Below, piece by piece: positions 1 through 24,549 of a DNA stretch of 24,549 nucleotides. How positions within the stretch are numbered: the first letter of the stretch is position 1; each line of letters starts with the position of its first letter. A program made the translations under genes and the position numbers. This DNA is from a virus. A model generated the notes under the pieces. That model was not told the DNA's origin and searched no databases. It saw nothing but the letters and a program-made list of their open reading frames with translations. Location: IMG/VR virus record IMGVR_UViG_3300020172_005917, positions 1 through 24,549 of that record; one strand, given 5' to 3'.

Positions 1-440
1 GCCTGAATACCCATACCAAAAGATTTTGTCAGATTAAACATCTCTTTATCAAGATCTCTAACTGGTTTTGAAAAGGCATCACCAAGATTTATGGTATTCT
101 TTACCGTCTCTGACATAACCTCTGACAAGCCGGCTGACATCGTGCCCAGAACATCAAAGGCAGTAGAAATACCTTGGCCAACACCTCGTAGTCCGGGAAT
201 TGTAGCTATTAAAGATCCAACAGTGCCACCCATGCTACCCATTGCTTTTGAGAGATGGCCTGCTGCAGTTCCAATGTCTTCAAAACCACTTGTTCCATCT
301 TTGAGACTTTTCCCCAATACAGTTATTGCAGCATTTATATCATTTATGGGAGCTAAAGTTTCTTTAAGACTCTCCTTAACCTTGACGGAACTATCGGCAA
401 GTTGTGTAAGGTTTGTTGCGAGTGGTGTATCTGATGCCAT
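1..440 (-). CDS. Probable tail tape measure protein, N-terminal part (runs off the left edge)
   Basis: An open frame starts at ATG 440 and stays open to the window edge, giving about 146 residues beginning MASDTPLATNLTQLADSSVK. A GAGGA Shine-Dalgarno lies 5-6 bases before the ATG and overlaps the TAG stop of the preceding gene. The visible part is rich in Ala, Gly, Ser and Thr. It mixes helical stretches with a small-residue hydrophobic segment (about residues 56-85), which is typical of tape measure N-termini. The main argument is position: directly downstream of the tube gene and a frameshifted tail assembly chaperone, where contractile- and long-tailed phages encode the tape measure. Tape measure proteins sit inside the tail tube and set its length. 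Most of the protein is outside the window, so length and any C-terminal lysozyme or peptidase domain cannot be judged. Another tail or baseplate protein remains possible. Confidence 0.65.
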   Translation of the reverse strand, partial: MASDTPLATNLTQLADSSVKVKESLKETLAPINDINAAITVLGKSLKDGTSGFEDIGTAAGHLSKAMGSMGGTVGSLIATIPGLRGVGQGISTAFDVLGTMSAGLSEVMSETVKNTINLGDAFSKPVRDLDKEMFNLTKSFGMGIQ

Positions 441-447
441 ATTTCCT

Positions 448-873
448 CTAGAAGTTTTCTCTATTTAGCTTTAAGATTCCAGAGATTTCTTTAGGTAACC
501 TAATATCTCTAGCTCCCTTTCTATCTGGAATATTATTAGAAATATTATCAGGAATATTATTTTGATACTCAACTTTTAAGAAGTCTTTATTTTTGATCAT
601 TTCTTCAAATTGACTATCATCCATAAATCTCTTATCATTCTTGGCTTCTCTTGCAGATTTGATCTTAGAGACTGCTTCTGGATTAATAAATGATGCCATA
701 TATTCTGAGAACGCCAAATCAGACTCAAAAGATTCTTCTAAATCTTTGCCAATCATTAATCCATACCACACCAATTGAGGTGCATTTATTTTTTTTATTT
801 TAGCATCATCAATTGGGCATCCCCAATATTTGGATAGGGTCCATAGAATCTTCGATTCTGGACCCTCTATTAT
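448..873 (-). CDS. Tail assembly chaperone, -1 frameshift extension (T-type domain)
   Basis: This frame has no good start of its own; the only early candidate is a TTG at 774 with no ribosome binding site. It is open from within the end of the upstream gene, and joining it by a -1 slip at the A7 run (873-879) adds 141 residues to the 148-residue upstream protein, about 289 in all. The extension begins IIEGPESKILWTLSKYWGCP and continues with INAPQLVWYGLMI. This Trp-rich layout matches the second part of G/GT-type chaperones, where a short helical domain reads roughly as 'W..L..YG.P...I..L...Q..W'. In those systems the minor fusion protein recruits tube subunits to the tape measure while the major short form coats it. 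It ends in TAG at 448, and the tape measure starts eight bases later. The family assignment is from pattern and position; the frameshift reading is an inference strongly supported by the signal. Confidence 0.8.
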   Translation of the reverse strand: MIEGPESKILWTLSKYWGCPIDDAKIKKINAPQLVWYGLMIGKDLEESFESDLAFSEYMASFINPEAVSKIKSAREAKNDKRFMDDSQFEEMIKNKDFLKVEYQNNIPDNISNNIPDRKGARDIRLPKEISGILKLNRENF

Positions 874-879
874 TTTTTT
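837..879 (-). promoter_or_regulatory. Programmed -1 ribosomal frameshift signal: A AAA AAA slippery heptamer plus stem-loop
   Basis: On the minus strand the upstream gene ends GTA AAA AAA TAA, which contains the heptamer A AAA AAA (879-873) in the X XXY YYZ register. After a seven-base spacer (872-866) comes an inverted repeat. GGGTCC (865-860) pairs with GGACCC (842-837), and inside it AGAATC (859-854) pairs with GATTCT (850-845) around a GAA loop, leaving a two-base bulge. That is 12 base pairs at the usual distance for a frameshift stimulator. The zero-frame stop lies directly after the heptamer, so slippage would read ATA ATA GAG into the downstream open frame. All of this is visible in the sequence; the efficiency cannot be read from it. 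Confidence 0.88.
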
Positions 880-1316
880 ACTTCTGTAATCTCAATTTGA
901 GAATTAGATTCTTCAATTATTTCTTCGTAGTTTTTAAATAACTTATTAACAACAGATATTTGAAGATTTTTTATAACAGATATTTTTTTATCAAAATCAT
1001 CTTCAAAGTCACCTTCTTCTGCAATATCTTCTAAAGGAACACCGTTAACCCTATCTACAGAAAAGGCTAGAGAAATAATTTTAGCATTTAGCAACCTAAG
1101 ATCATCCGGCAGCTTTATAACTTTTGCCACCATATTTCTTTGGTCTTCCGCTGTAATACTTTTCATTGAAAAGCTACATTCTCCGCAGACAACATCTCTC
1201 TCTATTCTTCCCAGAAATATAAGATCTTTTAAATTTTTAATTGTCATTTTCTTGGAAGGTGGTGCTTCGTTAACTTCTTCTTTTTTAGAATCTAATGAGA
1301 CAGATGTTTTTGACAT
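870..1316 (-). CDS. Tail assembly chaperone, short (zero-frame) form
   Basis: A 148-residue protein starting at ATG 1316 with a GGAG Shine-Dalgarno eight bases upstream and ending in TAA at 870. It has a low-complexity charged N-terminus (1-25) and then a compact region from LKDLIFLGRIERDVVCGECSF to LLNAKIISLAFSVDRVNGVP. This layout (short beta hairpin, 'T.ED...' helix, then a helix ending in 'VNG.PL') is common in tail chaperones encoded just before tape measure genes. The acidic C-terminal helix NYEEIIEESNSQIEITEVKK runs straight into the slippery sequence. By analogy with lambda gpG and P2/Mu-type chaperones it would bind the tape measure during tail assembly and be absent from the virion. 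It is separated from the tail tube gene by a hairpin terminator (1345-1377). Assignment rests on position, pattern and the frameshift signal. Confidence 0.78.
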   Translation of the reverse strand: MSKTSVSLDSKKEEVNEAPPSKKMTIKNLKDLIFLGRIERDVVCGECSFSMKSITAEDQRNMVAKVIKLPDDLRLLNAKIISLAFSVDRVNGVPLEDIAEEGDFEDDFDKKISVIKNLQISVVNKLFKNYEEIIEESNSQIEITEVKK

Positions 1317-1404: not shown

Positions 1405-2043
1405 CTAAAAAGCTGCCTTGATGAGGCCTGGGAAGTCCAAGCTTCCTCTGTATGTACCGTAGTCTGCAGCCTGCTCGACTGCGTCGATTTGACGACCCTC
1501 TGAGCCAAGATCTCTACCGCCTCCGACACCTTGACTACTGGCGACTGGTGCGCCGTTTCTTTCGGTGCTGATGGACTCTACGGTAATGCTTGCGTCTTCT
1601 GTAATGGTATAATCATTAACTGTATAAGACCTGCCTAATGAACCGAACCAGCAGTTATGATACGTGGTTACTATTGAACCACCATCTTCTTCTGTGCCGG
1701 TAAATCTATCAATTACTACTATATCAAATGGTATTCTTTGAGAATGAATATTCCTAAATCCTCTAGCCATTGACTCTGGCAATGAAAGACCATCAAAAAC
1801 AATTCTATTTACTGTTAACTCAACAGTAGCTGCTGACTGAGGGACTGCTTCTACAGTTCCATCTGTTCCAACTTCATATATTCTTTTGATCGCCCTTTGC
1901 TGTCTTTCTTGAAACGTCTGAATTGCACCAACTGGTTGGTTATTTACATAGACAACAATCTGGGTGCTAAGCCCAGTTCTTGTCTTTGCACCAGTTACTG
2001 CTTCAGAGTCAAATAATGTTCCTGTATATGGATATGATGCCAT
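1405..2043 (-). CDS. Tail tube protein
   Basis: A 212-residue protein with ATG at 2043 and an AAGGAG Shine-Dalgarno overlapping the end of the sheath gene. The stretch QTFQERQQRAIKRIYEVGTD (about residues 43-62), followed by VEAVPQSAATVELTVNRIVF, is the pattern I associate with myovirus tail tube proteins. There the residues after 'VG' lead into a beta-sandwich whose strands carry 'VP...T..EL.V.RI.FD'. A later segment has the beta-rich text expected of the inner tube barrel, and the C-terminus (from about residue 165) is Gly/Ser/Asp rich and probably extended. Position directly after the sheath gene agrees: the tube polymerises as hexameric rings inside the sheath and is the DNA channel. The gene is followed by a terminator, which would help give the tube a high, separate mRNA level. 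The call is by recall of family pattern plus synteny. Confidence 0.85.
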   Translation of the reverse strand: MASYPYTGTLFDSEAVTGAKTRTGLSTQIVVYVNNQPVGAIQTFQERQQRAIKRIYEVGTDGTVEAVPQSAATVELTVNRIVFDGLSLPESMARGFRNIHSQRIPFDIVVIDRFTGTEEDGGSIVTTYHNCWFGSLGRSYTVNDYTITEDASITVESISTERNGAPVASSQGVGGGRDLGSEGRQIDAVEQAADYGTYRGSLDFPGLIKAAF

Positions 2044-2056
2044 GTTTATTTACTCC

Positions 2057-5000
2057 TTAAATTACGCCAACTTCAATGTCAATAAAGACAAAGTTGATTG
2101 GATATGCTGGTACAAACTGTAAGAAAATGTTTATTTGTCTTGGGTCAACTTTATCTCTAGATGCTCTAATATTTCCAAAACTAGTAACCAAACCCTGGGA
2201 TGATAGGCCCGTCATGATTGTCTTGGTTCTAGCTGAAATCAAGCTAAGTGTATCTGGGCCCTGGACTCCTCCGATAAATCCTGCAAGAGTTTGTCTCAGA
2301 ACCTGCTTAACTCTGTCTCTAATGAAGACAATTGAAATCTCTTCATCTTCAACATATCCACTCTGGCTAGTGGTTCTACCTGCCAAGACTTTCCCTCCGC
2401 CTGGGATTGGCTGGATAACTGTAGCGCCTTCTCCACCTAATCTATCAAGAATAATTGGCCTAAAGATTTTGTCTCTAGTCAATGTAAATCCTTGAAGAAC
2501 TTTATTTGTAAGTGGTATTGAAACATTTTGTGTTGCAGATAACAAGCCAGCTACTGCTGGAGCCATGTAGAATCCATGTAGTGCTATATTTGTTCCAGAA
2601 ATGTTTCTTACAATAGAGTCTGGGTAAAGGTATACTGATCTTGGTGTTGAATAGTTATCACTTAGCTTGTAGTTTGCCAAATCTTCTACATCTCCAGAGA
2701 GAATCTCTAGTGGATCATCACCCTGAATTCCCTCAAGAACTCCTAGATTCTCTACTGCAGCAAAAGATTCACCAAGAATATTAGCTGGAGTTATACCAAT
2801 TTGAGCGCCAATTATAGCCATTCTTTCTTTTCTATTAGCTATAGAGCTCATGTTTTCACAATGCCCTACTGCTGCCTTGAAAATAGAGGATATAGTGCTA
2901 GATGGTAGAGGAACGATGATCTGCGCATCTGCAGATTCTAGTTTCTCAAAAGCTGTAAACCAATTAGTATCGTAATAATCAGCATCATTTTGATCTACAT
3001 ATGTGATTCTAATTCCATCGCCCTTCTTAATCGCACCGCTCTTAACCAAATCTTTGTGAAGCAATATTGCAGCACTTACATTAGTTGTATTTGTAGATTT
3101 TACAAAAAATTGTATATTTACAAATTTGTTAGTAAAGGTTAAGGTATTGGTATCAGATCCCAAAATAGTAGCTCTAGTATCTGATGATACAGCAGAAATT
3201 ACAACTTCAGCAGAAGGATCCACTGGCACTAAACCATATAGTTGCTCGGATATATCTGTTATGCTTGTATAAACAGTTCCAGATAGATCTTCCATAGACT
3301 CAATAACAATGGTTGAGCCAATGTGTGAACCATCTAAATCAAGTGAAAGACTTGAAATACTTCTTCCATCTGAGGCGCTGGTCATTGTTCCATTTTCTGC
3401 TGTAAATAAAATTTCAGTATTAGTATTTACAACTGTATAAGAAAATGGATTATCAGAACTAGTAATGAAGTTAAGTTGCTGAGAATCTGTTTCTAACTGG
3501 CTATTATAAAAATCAACTTTATTTGGGAAAAGTTGAGTTTCAACTCCAGCCCTATTTATAAAGATATTTACCCTAGAGTCTGCATCTGGTTTTCCAGATC
3601 TTAGACCGGATGTTGGTCTTGGAATAACAAACCTAAGATCTTCCACTCCACAGAGGTCGTCGTCAATAATTCCAGAACCATCTAAACATCCGGTGAATCC
3701 ACCAATTCCAATGGAATTTATTGCAGATAGCAATTGTGCAGAAGTCCTTCTTGGTACTGGAGGCTTACATTGTACGGTCAAGATTCCAGGAGCACCATTC
3801 TCAAAGGCCATTTGTGCGCCAAGAGATAGTGTGTTAGTTTCAGATGGAAGTCCATGTTTTTGGAACAAGAGCTCTGCGTCTGTAAAGAACTGTGGATCGT
3901 TAAGGTTTCCTTCGTAGATATATCTTGCCACTAGGTTATCGCCAAAAGCTAATGCTCTAGATGCAACATCCACATAGATTCTATCTCCTACCTCAAAGGT
4001 TATGGTTCCCTCTTGGATTCCGGCCATGATTACGCCGTTAGATTCTACTAGGTAGAATGTAATTCCATCCTCAAAAATACCAGATGATCCAACACCACTT
4101 TGAGCAGGGAATGAGACAGATGGATCCTCATACTTGGAAACTCTAACTCTATTATTTGCAGTTACTTTGGTTATTACAAACTTTCCGCCGTCAAAGTTTC
4201 CTGATGGGCAGGCCAAAATTATCTTGCCTAGATCTGCACCTGTAAATTTTCCAGAAGCAACATCATCAATAAATAAGTTTGTTGCCTTAATCTCCCAGTC
4301 TCTAGCAAAACCAACGCCACCCAAGGAGTCTGTTGATAAGACTAGAGTGGTAGTGTCTGTTCCAGAATCATAAGAGATATTATCAATTTCTACAGAAGTA
4401 TATCCGTCTACACATAAATAATCTCCTGGTAATGCTTGTCCTTGAGATACAAGATTTCCAGAAAAAGTAAAGATATTAGTTGTATCTGGTGTCTCTCCAC
4501 CGTCTGCCTCTGGAGTTCCGGTGCCAAACTCTACAGAAGATGCAACAGTATATCCATCAGTACAAGCGTCTATGTTTCCTGATACAGCTCCAGAAGAGCT
4601 AGTAAAATAAGTGCTATGGAAGAAAATAGGATTTCCAGTAGAGTCATATGACTGACCAGACACATCTCCTACAACAGAGAATGTTGCCCTGCCAGGAACA
4701 GGAGAACCTGCAGAGTCTCTTACTACAGAAACACATTTTAATGTCCATCTTTCGGCTGGAGCACTAAAATCAATTACATCCAAAACTTTACATGGATCAG
4801 ATGTATCTGGAATTATTCCATTTCCAATATTTAAAGAGCTAACTGAATAACCCTTTCCATCTTGGTCTTTTATAGATGGAGATTGAAGCTCAATGCATCC
4901 AGTTTTAGTGTCAACTCTAAAATCATATTTAGAGTCAAATCCAGCCTCATCTATTTCATCTTCTGTTCCATAAAGCTGAGTTCCGTTTAGAGTTAATTCT

Positions 5001-5254
5001 GTTCTTCCAGAAATAACTGGATAACTTCCCAGCCTGAAGAATCTTCCATCTCCACTTCCGGTGGGAGAACAGACGGCAGACCCATCCTGTCCAGCTCCAG
5101 CAGCAGACTCTATAATTACTTCTTCTTTTATTCCCTCGCCCATAATTGCAGCAATCCTCAGACCACCAGGAATACTGGCAGCTTTTGAAACAACACGATC
5201 TCTTGCAAATGCGCCAGGTTGAATATATCCTGATATACCTGGAATGTTAGCCAT
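2057..5254 (-). CDS. Contractile tail sheath protein (large form)
   Basis: A protein of about 1065 residues. I take the start at ATG 5254, which has GGAGGA five bases upstream, rather than the TTG one codon earlier. The N-terminus (ISGYIQPGAFARDRVVSKAA) is the usual sheath linker arm, QPG followed by an R-V-V strand. The C-terminal quarter is diagnostic: VSIPLTNKVLQGFTLTRDKI, then a domain with SIVFIRDRVKQVLRQTLAGF and IGGVQGPDT, and a final beta-strand block ending NFVFIDIEVGVI. A mid region, FENGAPGILTVQC (about residue 487) and VGHCENMSSIANRKERMAII (about 800), matches the sheath core where subunits contact. Sheath subunits surround the tail tube and contract to drive it through the envelope. 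Many sheaths are about 450-700 residues; the extra length lies mainly in the N-terminal half (about 90-450) and 540-780, which look like added beta-rich, Ser/Thr/Gly-rich surface domains. Confidence 0.93.
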   Translation of the reverse strand: MANIPGISGYIQPGAFARDRVVSKAASIPGGLRIAAIMGEGIKEEVIIESAAGAGQDGSAVCSPTGSGDGRFFRLGSYPVISGRTELTLNGTQLYGTEDEIDEAGFDSKYDFRVDTKTGCIELQSPSIKDQDGKGYSVSSLNIGNGIIPDTSDPCKVLDVIDFSAPAERWTLKCVSVVRDSAGSPVPGRATFSVVGDVSGQSYDSTGNPIFFHSTYFTSSSGAVSGNIDACTDGYTVASSVEFGTGTPEADGGETPDTTNIFTFSGNLVSQGQALPGDYLCVDGYTSVEIDNISYDSGTDTTTLVLSTDSLGGVGFARDWEIKATNLFIDDVASGKFTGADLGKIILACPSGNFDGGKFVITKVTANNRVRVSKYEDPSVSFPAQSGVGSSGIFEDGITFYLVESNGVIMAGIQEGTITFEVGDRIYVDVASRALAFGDNLVARYIYEGNLNDPQFFTDAELLFQKHGLPSETNTLSLGAQMAFENGAPGILTVQCKPPVPRRTSAQLLSAINSIGIGGFTGCLDGSGIIDDDLCGVEDLRFVIPRPTSGLRSGKPDADSRVNIFINRAGVETQLFPNKVDFYNSQLETDSQQLNFITSSDNPFSYTVVNTNTEILFTAENGTMTSASDGRSISSLSLDLDGSHIGSTIVIESMEDLSGTVYTSITDISEQLYGLVPVDPSAEVVISAVSSDTRATILGSDTNTLTFTNKFVNIQFFVKSTNTTNVSAAILLHKDLVKSGAIKKGDGIRITYVDQNDADYYDTNWFTAFEKLESADAQIIVPLPSSTISSIFKAAVGHCENMSSIANRKERMAIIGAQIGITPANILGESFAAVENLGVLEGIQGDDPLEILSGDVEDLANYKLSDNYSTPRSVYLYPDSIVRNISGTNIALHGFYMAPAVAGLLSATQNVSIPLTNKVLQGFTLTRDKIFRPIILDRLGGEGATVIQPIPGGGKVLAGRTTSQSGYVEDEEISIVFIRDRVKQVLRQTLAGFIGGVQGPDTLSLISARTKTIMTGLSSQGLVTSFGNIRASRDKVDPRQINIFLQFVPAYPINFVFIDIEVGVI

Positions 5255-5301
5255 CAAATCCTCCGATACTTTACGTCAAAATTTTTATTAGTAGGTGTAA
5301 T

Positions 5302-20769: not shown

Positions 20770-21843
20770 ATGTTAAAAATAGGTTTAATTCATGATAATG
20801 TTACAGATCATCTTTTAGATGGTAGTGATCAAAGTGGATATTTTTTATATAAAATATTAAAAAAAATACAATTTGATGTAAGTTTAGTTTCTTTTTATAA
20901 AAATAAAAATTTTTTTAAAGAAAAAAGTAATGTTATAAAGTTTAAAGATATTAAAAATTTTGATTTATTCATTAACATATCAAAAAATCTTGATGAAGAA
21001 ATAATAAAAAATATATTTATAAATAATAAAAAAATTGTAACAAATATACATGATAATATTTTATTAAAATTAAAAGAATCATTGGTTAATGATAATTTAG
21101 ATAAAAACTTTGATCCATCAAATATCAGTGTATCAAGAAATACGTCGCTAATAGCTGATCATTATGATGGTATTTCAAATTTTTTGGAAATAATTACAAA
21201 ATCAAAAACAAAGACAATCCCATTTCTCTGGGACGCAGATTTCTGCCTAGAGTCTATCGGCAATTTTGATAGCAATTCCTTAAACAAAGAAGACTTATGT
21301 AAGGTTGGAATATTTGAATCTAATAATTCATTTTATAAAAATTCAATCGTACCAATGTCTATATGCGAAGGAGTAGAAAGAGTTGACTCATCAATATTAA
21401 AATTTGTTTTTATTGCAAATATTGAAGATAAAATGAAAAATGTAATGTTCAATCATTATTATAATAATTTAAAATTGAAACATAATAATAAACTATATCC
21501 ATATCATAGATCTAATCTATCATTTTTGATATCTAGAAACGCCATTAATACTGTTGTTTCAAACCAACTTTTTGACATGTATAATTATACATATTTTGAA
21601 ACACTATTTTTAAATAGGCCGTTAATTCATAACTCAAAACTATACAAAAATGTTGGATATTATTATAATGATTTTGAAATTATAGATGCTTCAAAATTAT
21701 TAATAAAAGCAATAAAAACTTTTGATATAGATACAGATAATAATATTAATAAAGAATTTTTAAATAAATTTTCAACAGATAATAAAGACAATCAAGATAA
21801 AATAAAAAATATAATTTTAGAGGAAGCTAAAAATGAAAATTAA
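20770..21843 (+). CDS. Divergent DUF2827-like glycosyltransferase-family protein (first of pair)
   Basis: A 357-residue protein, ATG at 20770 with GGAG eight bases upstream, on the strand opposite its neighbours. It has the same block order as the next gene: an N-terminal Rossmann-like start (MLKIGLIHDN), TIPFLWDADF at 149-158, VGIFESNNSFYKNSIVPMSI at 179-198 and TVVSNQLFDMYNYTYFETLF at 261-280, then RPLIHNS...GYYYNDF to about 302. These blocks fit, with several substitutions, the DUF2827 family, a glycosyltransferase-like group. In particular the usual 'EPN.S..K....P' motif reads ESNNSFYKNSIVP here, so activity may be altered. The gene is strikingly richer in A and T than its neighbours, including its partner. 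It likely arose from the same ancestor as the next gene, followed by strong divergence or separate acquisition. Confidence 0.6.
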   Translation: MLKIGLIHDNVTDHLLDGSDQSGYFLYKILKKIQFDVSLVSFYKNKNFFKEKSNVIKFKDIKNFDLFINISKNLDEEIIKNIFINNKKIVTNIHDNILLKLKESLVNDNLDKNFDPSNISVSRNTSLIADHYDGISNFLEIITKSKTKTIPFLWDADFCLESIGNFDSNSLNKEDLCKVGIFESNNSFYKNSIVPMSICEGVERVDSSILKFVFIANIEDKMKNVMFNHYYNNLKLKHNNKLYPYHRSNLSFLISRNAINTVVSNQLFDMYNYTYFETLFLNRPLIHNSKLYKNVGYYYNDFEIIDASKLLIKAIKTFDIDTDNNINKEFLNKFSTDNKDNQDKIKNIILEEAKNEN

Positions 21844-22912
21844 ACATAAGATAGGAGTTACCACCAAAGGTTCCAAAACTATCTGGTCAAATGGTTTGAA
21901 TCAAAATTCTTATTTTTTTATAAAGTTATTGCAAAAAATGGGCTATGATGTTGACGCAATTGCAACAGTCTTAGATGTAGAGGATGCACAGTTTATAGGT
22001 CTGGATAGGGTGGTGCTGACTAAAGACAGTATTAAATCTTATTCGATAATATTTGAAGTTGCATCAATGTTAGATGAAGCAGCAATGGACATTTGTAGAA
22101 AAAATAACATAAAAGTAGTATCCATAAATTATGGAAGTTTTTTGTTTTACTTAATGGAAGGATTATTATATAAAGGAGAGACTCCAACTGCAGTACACGT
22201 TGAGGGAAGAGATGTTCTGATCTCCCCGCACTATAATTTTGGAAAAGAATTTTTGAAGAATGTTACTGGTCAAAATATTATGACAATCCCCTATATATGG
22301 GAGCCTTGGTTTATAGATGGAACTTTGTTAAAAGAATCTAAGATTAATGAAAAATTTTCCAAAGAAATTAATAAGAAAAATGTAGTTTCATTAGAGCCAA
22401 ATATTAGCATTGCAAAAACATGTATTGTTCCACTTGTAATTGCAGAAGGCCTTGAATTATCTGATTCTAGCAAGATAGATTCAATGACTTTATTTGGAAC
22501 AAAACATCTTAATGAAAGAACAACTTTCAATAAACTATACTCAAATACAGAATTATATAGATCTGGAAAGCTAGTTATAGAAAATAGATATTCTATTTCT
22601 GGTCTTTTTAATACAAAAAGAATTGGAACAATAGTTTCAAATCATTTTTATAATGATTTAAACTATGTTACACTAGAGGCTTTATATCTAGGTTTTCCTA
22701 TAATTCATAATAGTGAGTATTGCAAAGAAGGAGGGTACTACTATGATGGCTTCAATACAAAACTAGGTACAGAACTATTGGACAGGGCAATCTCTACAGA
22801 CGATCACTTGTCTGATGAAAAAATAAAGAATGCAAAAGAAATTATTTATGGTTACTCAATAAATAATCCAAGCACACAGAGGGCATATAGAGAGCTGATT
22901 AAAAATCTTTAA
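21833..22912 (+). CDS. DUF2827-like glycosyltransferase-family protein (second of pair)
   Basis: A 359-residue protein, ATG at 21833 overlapping the end of the previous gene by 11 bases, with AGAGGAAG upstream. Blocks match the DUF2827 family as I recall it: GSKTIWSNGLNQNSYFFIKL at 13-32, MTIPYIWEPWF at 150-160, VVSLEPNISIAKTCIVPLVI at 184-203, then GTIVSNHFYNDLNYVTLEAL at 265-284, followed by LGFPIIHNSEYCKEGGYYYD to about 305. The E-P-N motif and the C-terminal 'Y..LEALY.G.P.+HN' resemble the nucleotide-sugar-binding half of GT-B glycosyltransferases. The family has no settled activity that I know of. A phage copy could glycosylate a virion protein, alter the host surface or act in DNA base hypermodification. 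It ends convergently with the next minus-strand gene, overlapping by four bases. Confidence 0.7.
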   Translation: MKIKHKIGVTTKGSKTIWSNGLNQNSYFFIKLLQKMGYDVDAIATVLDVEDAQFIGLDRVVLTKDSIKSYSIIFEVASMLDEAAMDICRKNNIKVVSINYGSFLFYLMEGLLYKGETPTAVHVEGRDVLISPHYNFGKEFLKNVTGQNIMTIPYIWEPWFIDGTLLKESKINEKFSKEINKKNVVSLEPNISIAKTCIVPLVIAEGLELSDSSKIDSMTLFGTKHLNERTTFNKLYSNTELYRSGKLVIENRYSISGLFNTKRIGTIVSNHFYNDLNYVTLEALYLGFPIIHNSEYCKEGGYYYDGFNTKLGTELLDRAISTDDHLSDEKIKNAKEIIYGYSINNPSTQRAYRELIKNL

Positions 22913-23629: not shown

Positions 23630-24549
23630 TTAAAAGTTTCTGTTGTATTTGACGGTAATTACGTCAGTTGAAAGTATGCTGAATCTAAAGACGATTCTGA
23701 ACAGAGGTCCAGTAGGATCCTTATAGAGTGCATAATCTCCAGTGGTGAACTTGGCTGGATCAACTGCAGCTCCGACTAAGTCGCCTGGTCCAAATAGCTT
23801 GTAGTTATTTGTTCCACCGTCGTATGCTGGGGCCACCAATAAACCGTTGACATAAACATCCAATTGGCCTGGAACTGATCCACCAACTATGCCCTCGATA
23901 AGCTTCTCTAGGAAGATGCCTGATGGGGTATTGATTAGAGTCTTTCCGCCACCAGTATTGAGGTTTATTAACTCTCTGACGGCTGTGGCTCCTGGCTTAC
24001 CGAACCAAATGCTCTCCTTAGATTTTGTGTCTACAATGGCTCTAGTAGAAGACTCATAGGCAATTGCAGAAGTGAGTACAGAGTCAGCAGAAGATCTAGT
24101 TGTAGATTCAACAGAAAGAGAGGAGGTTAGTACAGAATCGCCAGAGGATCTTGCTGCAGTCTCAACTGCAAGTGCAGAAGTGAGTGTAGAATCACCAGCA
24201 GATCTTGTTGCAGACTCAGCAGAAAGTGCAGAAGTTAGTGCAGAATCACCAGAAGATCTAGCAGCAGTCTCAACAACAAGTGCGGAGTTGATTGCAGAGT
24301 CTTCAGAAGATCTTGCTGCAGTCTCAACTGCAAGTGCAGAGTTAAGAGTAGAGTCACCAGCGGATCTTGTTGCAGACTCAGCAGAAAGTGCAGAGGTAAG
24401 TGCAGAGTCACCAGAAGATCTAGCTGCAGTCTCGACTACTAGGGCAGAGTTGATTGCAGAATCTTCAGAAGATCTTGCTGCAGTCTCAACAACTAGAGCA
24501 GAGTTGAGAGAGGAGTCACCAGAGGATCTGGCGGCAGTCTCAACGACTA
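23630..24549 (-). CDS. Repeat-rich fibre/stalk protein, C-terminal part (runs off the right edge)
   Basis: Reading leftward, the frame is open from the window edge to TAA at 23630, about 305 residues. The first 170 (24549 to about 24039) are a tandem array of 18-residue units with consensus 'VVETAARSSGDSALTSAL', with variants at several positions. Next comes a connecting region (IVDTKSKESIWFGKPGATAV), then RELINLNTGGGKTLINTPSG and IFLEKLIEGIVGGSVPG. The last module has QLDVYVNGLLVAPAYDGG, GPGDLVGAAVDPAKFTTGDY and a final FSILSTDVITVKYNRNF. The repeat is rich in Ala and Ser with regular Leu/Val positions, so it probably makes a long helical or fibrous stalk, and the end module a globular tip. 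It resembles phage fibres that use such repeats for length. A small in-frame TTG at 23863 is not the true start. The N-terminus is beyond the window. Confidence 0.75.
   Translation of the reverse strand, partial: VVETAARSSGDSSLNSALVVETAARSSEDSAINSALVVETAARSSGDSALTSALSAESATRSAGDSTLNSALAVETAARSSEDSAINSALVVETAARSSGDSALTSALSAESATRSAGDSTLTSALAVETAARSSGDSVLTSSLSVESTTRSSADSVLTSAIAYESSTRAIVDTKSKESIWFGKPGATAVRELINLNTGGGKTLINTPSGIFLEKLIEGIVGGSVPGQLDVYVNGLLVAPAYDGGTNNYKLFGPGDLVGAAVDPAKFTTGDYALYKDPTGPLFRIVFRFSILSTDVITVKYNRNF
24039..24549 (-). repeat. 54-bp coding tandem repeat (18 residues per unit), continuing past the window edge
   Basis: The landmark GATCT recurs at 24093, 24147, 24201, 24255, 24309, 24363, 24417, 24471 and 24525, exactly 54 bases apart; a more degenerate unit precedes it from 24039. 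Units 162 bases apart are more alike than adjacent ones: the 24201/24363, 24255/24417 and 24309/24471 pairs nearly match. This gives a three-unit higher-order repeat of 54 residues. The unit reads roughly A-R-S-S-(G/A/E)-D-S-x-L-x-S-A-L-x-V-E-T-A in the gene frame. Confidence 0.9.

Follow-up and report, generated by a model that had tools for sequence, protein, structure and literature searches.

A probable -1 ribosomal frameshift joins the two parts of a tail assembly chaperone in a phage group related to Bacillus phage G

Gene order of the tail locus

A 24,549-base IMG/VR virus record with a GC content of 33%, analysed here at its full length and referred to below as the window, carries on its minus strand a 148-codon ORF that runs directly into a long open frame in the -1 register. 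The question raised by this locus is whether the two frames are joined by programmed ribosomal frameshifting into an extended tail assembly chaperone, or whether the second frame is a gene of its own, the product of slippage during transcription, or the remnant of a broken gene. On the minus strand the order is tail sheath gene, tube-like gene, 148-codon ORF, open -1 frame and the start of a tape-measure-like gene. The features are as follows:

2057..5257, minus strand: tail sheath protein, 1066 aa (phrog_2839)
1405..2043, minus strand: tail tube-like protein, the upstream neighbour (phrog_985; 29% identical to gp180 of Bacillus phage G)
1351..1377, minus strand: terminator-like hairpin with a T-rich tail between the tube and chaperone genes (from sequence)
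870..1316, minus strand: predicted zero-frame tail assembly chaperone ORF (G-like part), 148 aa, stop TAA at 872-870 (family and fold matches)
873..879, minus strand: putative slippery heptamer A_AAA_AAA, in frame and adjoining the zero-frame stop (every readable relative has a slippery heptamer here)
836..866, minus strand: predicted stimulatory stem-loop of 12-13 bp with a 2-nt bulge and a GAA loop (z -4.0, synonymous-codon control, covariation)
448..873, minus strand: predicted -1 frame extension (T-like part), 141 codons after the slip, stop at 450-448 (dN/dS, homology to the C-terminal part of phage G gp182)
3..440, minus strand: N-terminal part of a tape measure protein gene, which leaves the window (weak matches to several tape measure PHROGs, best E 0.0027)

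The presence of the sheath gene indicates a contractile tail. Two overlapping ORFs in a 0/-1 relation between the tube and tape measure genes is the arrangement of the G/GT class of chaperones, and the tape-measure-like gene is the downstream neighbour expected of a chaperone pair.

Several other features of the locus deserve mention. The sheath protein is unusually long and its match to the sheath family is confined to the last ~175 residues, therefore large inserted or decorating domains probably make up part of it. The terminator-like hairpin that separates the tube gene from the chaperone gene is strong, which suggests either weaker transcription of the latter or a promoter of its own. At one end of the window (23630-24547, minus strand) there is an open-ended ORF containing near-perfect repeats of a unit like ETAARSSGDSAL, whose product may be a fibre or a coiled-coil protein. 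On the opposite strand, inside the tail module, lie two ORFs close to each other in size (357 and 359 aa; 20770-22912, plus strand), and their products look by eye like glycosyltransferases.

The slippery site and the -1 frame

The 148-aa ORF (1316-870) ends with the codons GAA GTA AAA AAA TAA, which places the heptamer at 879-873, in the correct register and abutting the stop codon. The -1 frame is open from position 891 to its stop, and the 141 codons following the slip give a predicted fusion of 148 + 141 = 289 residues. The first start-like codons in this frame are TTG 774, GTG 771 and ATG 756, none of them preceded by a Shine-Dalgarno-like sequence. A sequence-only reading of the window had described the same zero-frame ending and heptamer, an open frame of 141 codons, a fusion of about 289 residues and a poor start for the second part, and it was right on each of these points. 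However, as many as 154 strings of the XXXYYYZ type occur on the minus strand of this AT-rich window, so the presence of the heptamer alone says little, and its conservation was therefore tested.

Conservation of the probable frameshift site in related phages

With the tube protein as bait, 72 related IMG/VR loci on contigs of up to 335 kb were collected. The junction was readable in 65 sequences (the window included), 51 of which are distinct. All 65 possess the 0/-1 arrangement and an in-frame slippery heptamer, located at the zero-frame stop or one codon before it; such a conserved in-frame heptamer in the overlap is a further property of the G/GT class. Among the 51 distinct sequences the heptamer is A_AAA_AAA in 33, U_UUA_AAA in 15, A_AAA_AAG in two and A_AAA_AAC in one. 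A second search, with a profile of the -1 domain, yielded 33 further loci, several of them near-duplicates, and the 32 that reach the site all contain a heptamer, U_UUU_UUA being found among them. The lineage has therefore used five heptamer types (A_AAA_AAA, U_UUA_AAA, A_AAA_AAC, A_AAA_AAG and U_UUU_UUA) without ever losing the site, and at least four changes of type are required on the tree of the fused proteins. As a control, the other ORF ends of the first set of loci were inspected: only 5 of 338 bear a slippery heptamer, and the -1 frame remains open for 100 codons past none of these five. Because of this difference between the chaperone junctions and the control ends, we consider that the placement of the heptamer at the zero-frame stop is not due to chance.

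The junction is a homopolymer, a place where errors are common, and the open -1 frame might accordingly represent a gene disrupted by either a mutation or a sequencing error that shifted the frame. This reading is refuted by the conservation of the 0/-1 layout, which recurs in every readable relative, i.e. in many independent assemblies, as well as in the isolated Bacillus phage G, while an in-frame fused version was not found among the relatives; we regard its probability as practically nil. One candidate for such a fusion, a single 264-codon ORF in the related contig L018, was rejected, as it proved to be an inserted, unrelated sulfotransferase-like ORF, with the chaperone start located after it. 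This insertion between the tube and chaperone genes occurs in two related contigs, L018 (6702-7487) and L017.

A single-sequence search of IMG/VR with the zero-frame protein confirmed no direct relatives, and the single-sequence match of this protein to phage G was weak (E 0.4). No relative of the tube protein was found in the genome collection, hence the group could not be linked to a host or a prophage.

The hairpin downstream of the slippery site

Downstream of the heptamer the minus strand may fold into a stem-loop, GGGTCCAGAATC-GAA-GATTCT-AT-GGACCC (865-837). The seven-base spacer and the 12-bp bulged stem-loop proposed in the sequence-only reading were both recovered; ViennaRNA adds an A-U pair (866-836), which makes the spacer 6-7 nt. 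The minimum free energy of the window hairpin is -17.4 kcal/mol (z -4.0), and none of 200 shuffled sequences was as stable.

As a further control, synonymous codons drawn from the same genes were substituted for the 20 codons at the start of the -1 frame. Against these protein-preserving recodings the mean z over the 51 distinct sequences was -3.66, with 92% of the values below -1.5, and the next four 20-codon blocks gave means of -0.9, -0.2, -0.2 and 0.0. In six sequences (L010, L028, L042, L043, L045 and L046) the hairpin was not individually significant. Judged by this comparison, the hairpin is selected beyond the protein that it encodes. A downstream stimulatory RNA structure under selection is a common, not universal, property of the G/GT class.

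Paired changes on both sides of the stem were also observed (G-C to A-U; U-A to C-G and G-U; C-G to U-A), their numbers being small within each class, and the pairing collapses once one arm of the stem is slid. Three pairing registers surround one conserved protein segment, the partners of the 5' arm differing by clade: GGGTCC/GGACCC in the group of the window, GGAGCC/GGCTCC in the second group and AGCTCC/GGGAGCT in the third. In L048, L051 and L053, which lie near the third group, the 5' arm has moved by two bases, with the 3' arm unchanged. A loop-stem pseudoknot considered for the GGAGCC class was dropped on the grounds that its connecting loop is too short, and an Rfam search revealed no relevant family.

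One might speculate that the frameshift signal of this lineage is re-wired again and again, with the heptamer type and the partner of the 5' arm changing while the encoded segment stays homologous. The group would then offer a natural series for studying how the ratio of short to long chaperone is held constant, perhaps in step with tail length. We propose this only tentatively and think it rather less than probable.

The heptamer of the window consists of seven consecutive A residues, and poly-A tracts are a known cause of transcriptional slippage. RNA polymerase, instead of the ribosome, might thus slip at this site. Seven A is, however, short for polymerase slippage, and selection acts on an RNA hairpin located at the customary distance downstream. 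Transcriptional slippage is extremely unlikely because clades have exchanged the A run for U_UUA_AAA, A_AAA_AAC or A_AAA_AAG, which preserve the tandem re-pairing of tRNAs and not a long homopolymer.

Selection on the -1 frame

In the group of the window the median dN/dS for codons 2-32 of the -1 frame, which lie ahead of any start codon, is ~0.3, a rough value since dS is often near saturation, and the later part of the frame gives the same ratio. Codons 2-32 also encode those residues of the domain that are most conserved (W11, L13, K15, W17, D22 and D23).

These data bear on the possibility that the extension is a gene in its own right, with translation beginning inside the -1 frame (at TTG 774, GTG 771 or ATG 756) and perhaps coupled to termination at TAA 870. 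Start-like codons do exist in the -1 frame, and three relatives (L046, L057 and L058) have TAATG at the junction, i.e. a -1-frame ATG right after the slippery site. However, the most conserved block, W.LCK.W.C..DD, precedes the three starts of the window and is under purifying selection. The first start codons have no conserved position among the relatives and lack Shine-Dalgarno-like sequences; in L051 and L019 no start-like codon of any kind appears before codons 91 and 76, respectively. An internal start would also leave the conservation of the heptamer and the hairpin unexplained, and we consider it very unlikely. Homologs encoding the second part as a separate, well-started gene, which the sequence-only reading had named as counter-evidence, were sought among the relatives and not found, the exceptions being L046, L057 and L058, with no Shine-Dalgarno-like sequence at their junction ATG. 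In these three a second, coupled route to the extension is possible, and both routes may be usable. On the basis of sequence comparison, we conclude that the -1 frame is translated from the slip and not from an internal start.

Identity of the two protein parts

The expectation that the proteins would align to tail chaperone families held for the relatives and failed for the window taken alone. Neither of its two proteins matched a chaperone family in PHROG or Pfam, whereas in the zero-frame family alignment 22 of 44 sequences hit phrog_2792/2992, which are annotated as 'tail assembly chaperone' (best E 8.5e-7). The family assignment therefore rests on the relatives and on the fold. Pfam gave nothing credible, the -1 domain by itself had no convincing match in PHROG, and a sequence-profile search of the PDB returned no match.

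The zero-frame product, as modelled by AlphaFold2 (mean pLDDT 75.7), has its best fold matches in the HK97 tail assembly chaperone (2ob9) and YqbN (3klu), with a Foldseek probability of 0.99 against 2ob9 and a VIA-align Z of 7.5 for each, which is a middling value. Among the viral models in BFVD, the best matches of the zero-frame product include gp181 and also gp182 of phage G, and the best match of the -1 domain is gp182. Profile comparison by hhalign gave a probability of 98.5% for the zero-frame part against gp181 and 97.3% for the -1 part against the C-terminal part of gp182. The first product is consequently placed in tail chaperone families by sequence and fold, as in other members of the G/GT class, and the homology of both halves together with the matching neighbours assigns the locus to the gp181/gp182 lineage of phage G.

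Proposed mechanism and its significance

The G/GT-type frameshifted chaperone suggested in the sequence-only reading is supported by conservation of the site, covariation in the hairpin, purifying selection spanning the junction, gene order, predicted fold, matches to chaperone families and homology to the annotated frameshifted chaperone of phage G. It is very probable, as far as comparative sequence analysis and structure models can indicate, that a -1 programmed ribosomal frameshift produces a short and an extended tail chaperone in this large contractile-tailed phage. We infer the slipping itself, its frequency, the ratio of short to long form and the roles of the two products. Most ribosomes would stop at TAA 872-870 and release the 148-residue short chaperone. 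Others, delayed by the hairpin (866-836) while two lysyl-tRNAs occupy A_AAA_AAA, would slip back by one base and read 141 more codons, giving the 289-residue fusion, which by analogy with lambda would be the minor product. As in the G/GT system of that phage, binding of the tape measure protein would be the role of the short form, tail tube subunits would be recruited by way of the extension, and neither form would remain in the virion.

With these observations, a recoding mechanism that is already known is extended to the relatives of Bacillus phage G, a large group whose members are mostly uncultivated. They also supply about 50 distinct natural variants of a single frameshift signal, which show turnover of both the heptamer and the hairpin within the coding sequence of one protein. 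Ordinary gene callers can be expected to miss or mis-start the chaperone extension in these records.

Comparison with known systems

The structures closest in fold to the zero-frame product, the HK97 chaperone and YqbN, have no sequence relation to it that the PDB profile search could detect. Lambda is a siphovirus and its slippery site is G_GGA_AAG. Unlike lambda, the window phage has a contractile tail and a site that abuts the stop codon. What the two systems share is a -1 frameshift placed close to the 3' end of the first chaperone ORF, with the tail tube gene on one side and the tape measure gene on the other (PMC5009743). G-T frameshifting is widely conserved (PMC5009743), and our survey of the literature on metagenomic phages found no earlier report specific to the present group.

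The best comparison is with Bacillus phage G, for which the gp181/gp182 frameshift has already been stated (PMC8570332). Like the window, phage G has a tube homolog (gp180), two ORFs joined as a chaperone (gp181/gp182) and a tape measure gene (gp183), and it slips by -1 at a site abutting the stop, A_AAA_AAC TAG. On the other hand, protein identity between the two is only 20-30%, the heptamer is A_AAA_AAC instead of A_AAA_AAA, and the extension comprises 252 residues in phage G and 141 in the window. Moreover, phage G, unlike the window, has no significant local hairpin by the stability test applied (z -1.1). Set beside these systems, the window contains a G/GT-class chaperone of a phage G-related group, a known mechanism and ordinary in kind; the one mildly new point is that the heptamer and the pairing of the hairpin have turned over while the protein stayed conserved.
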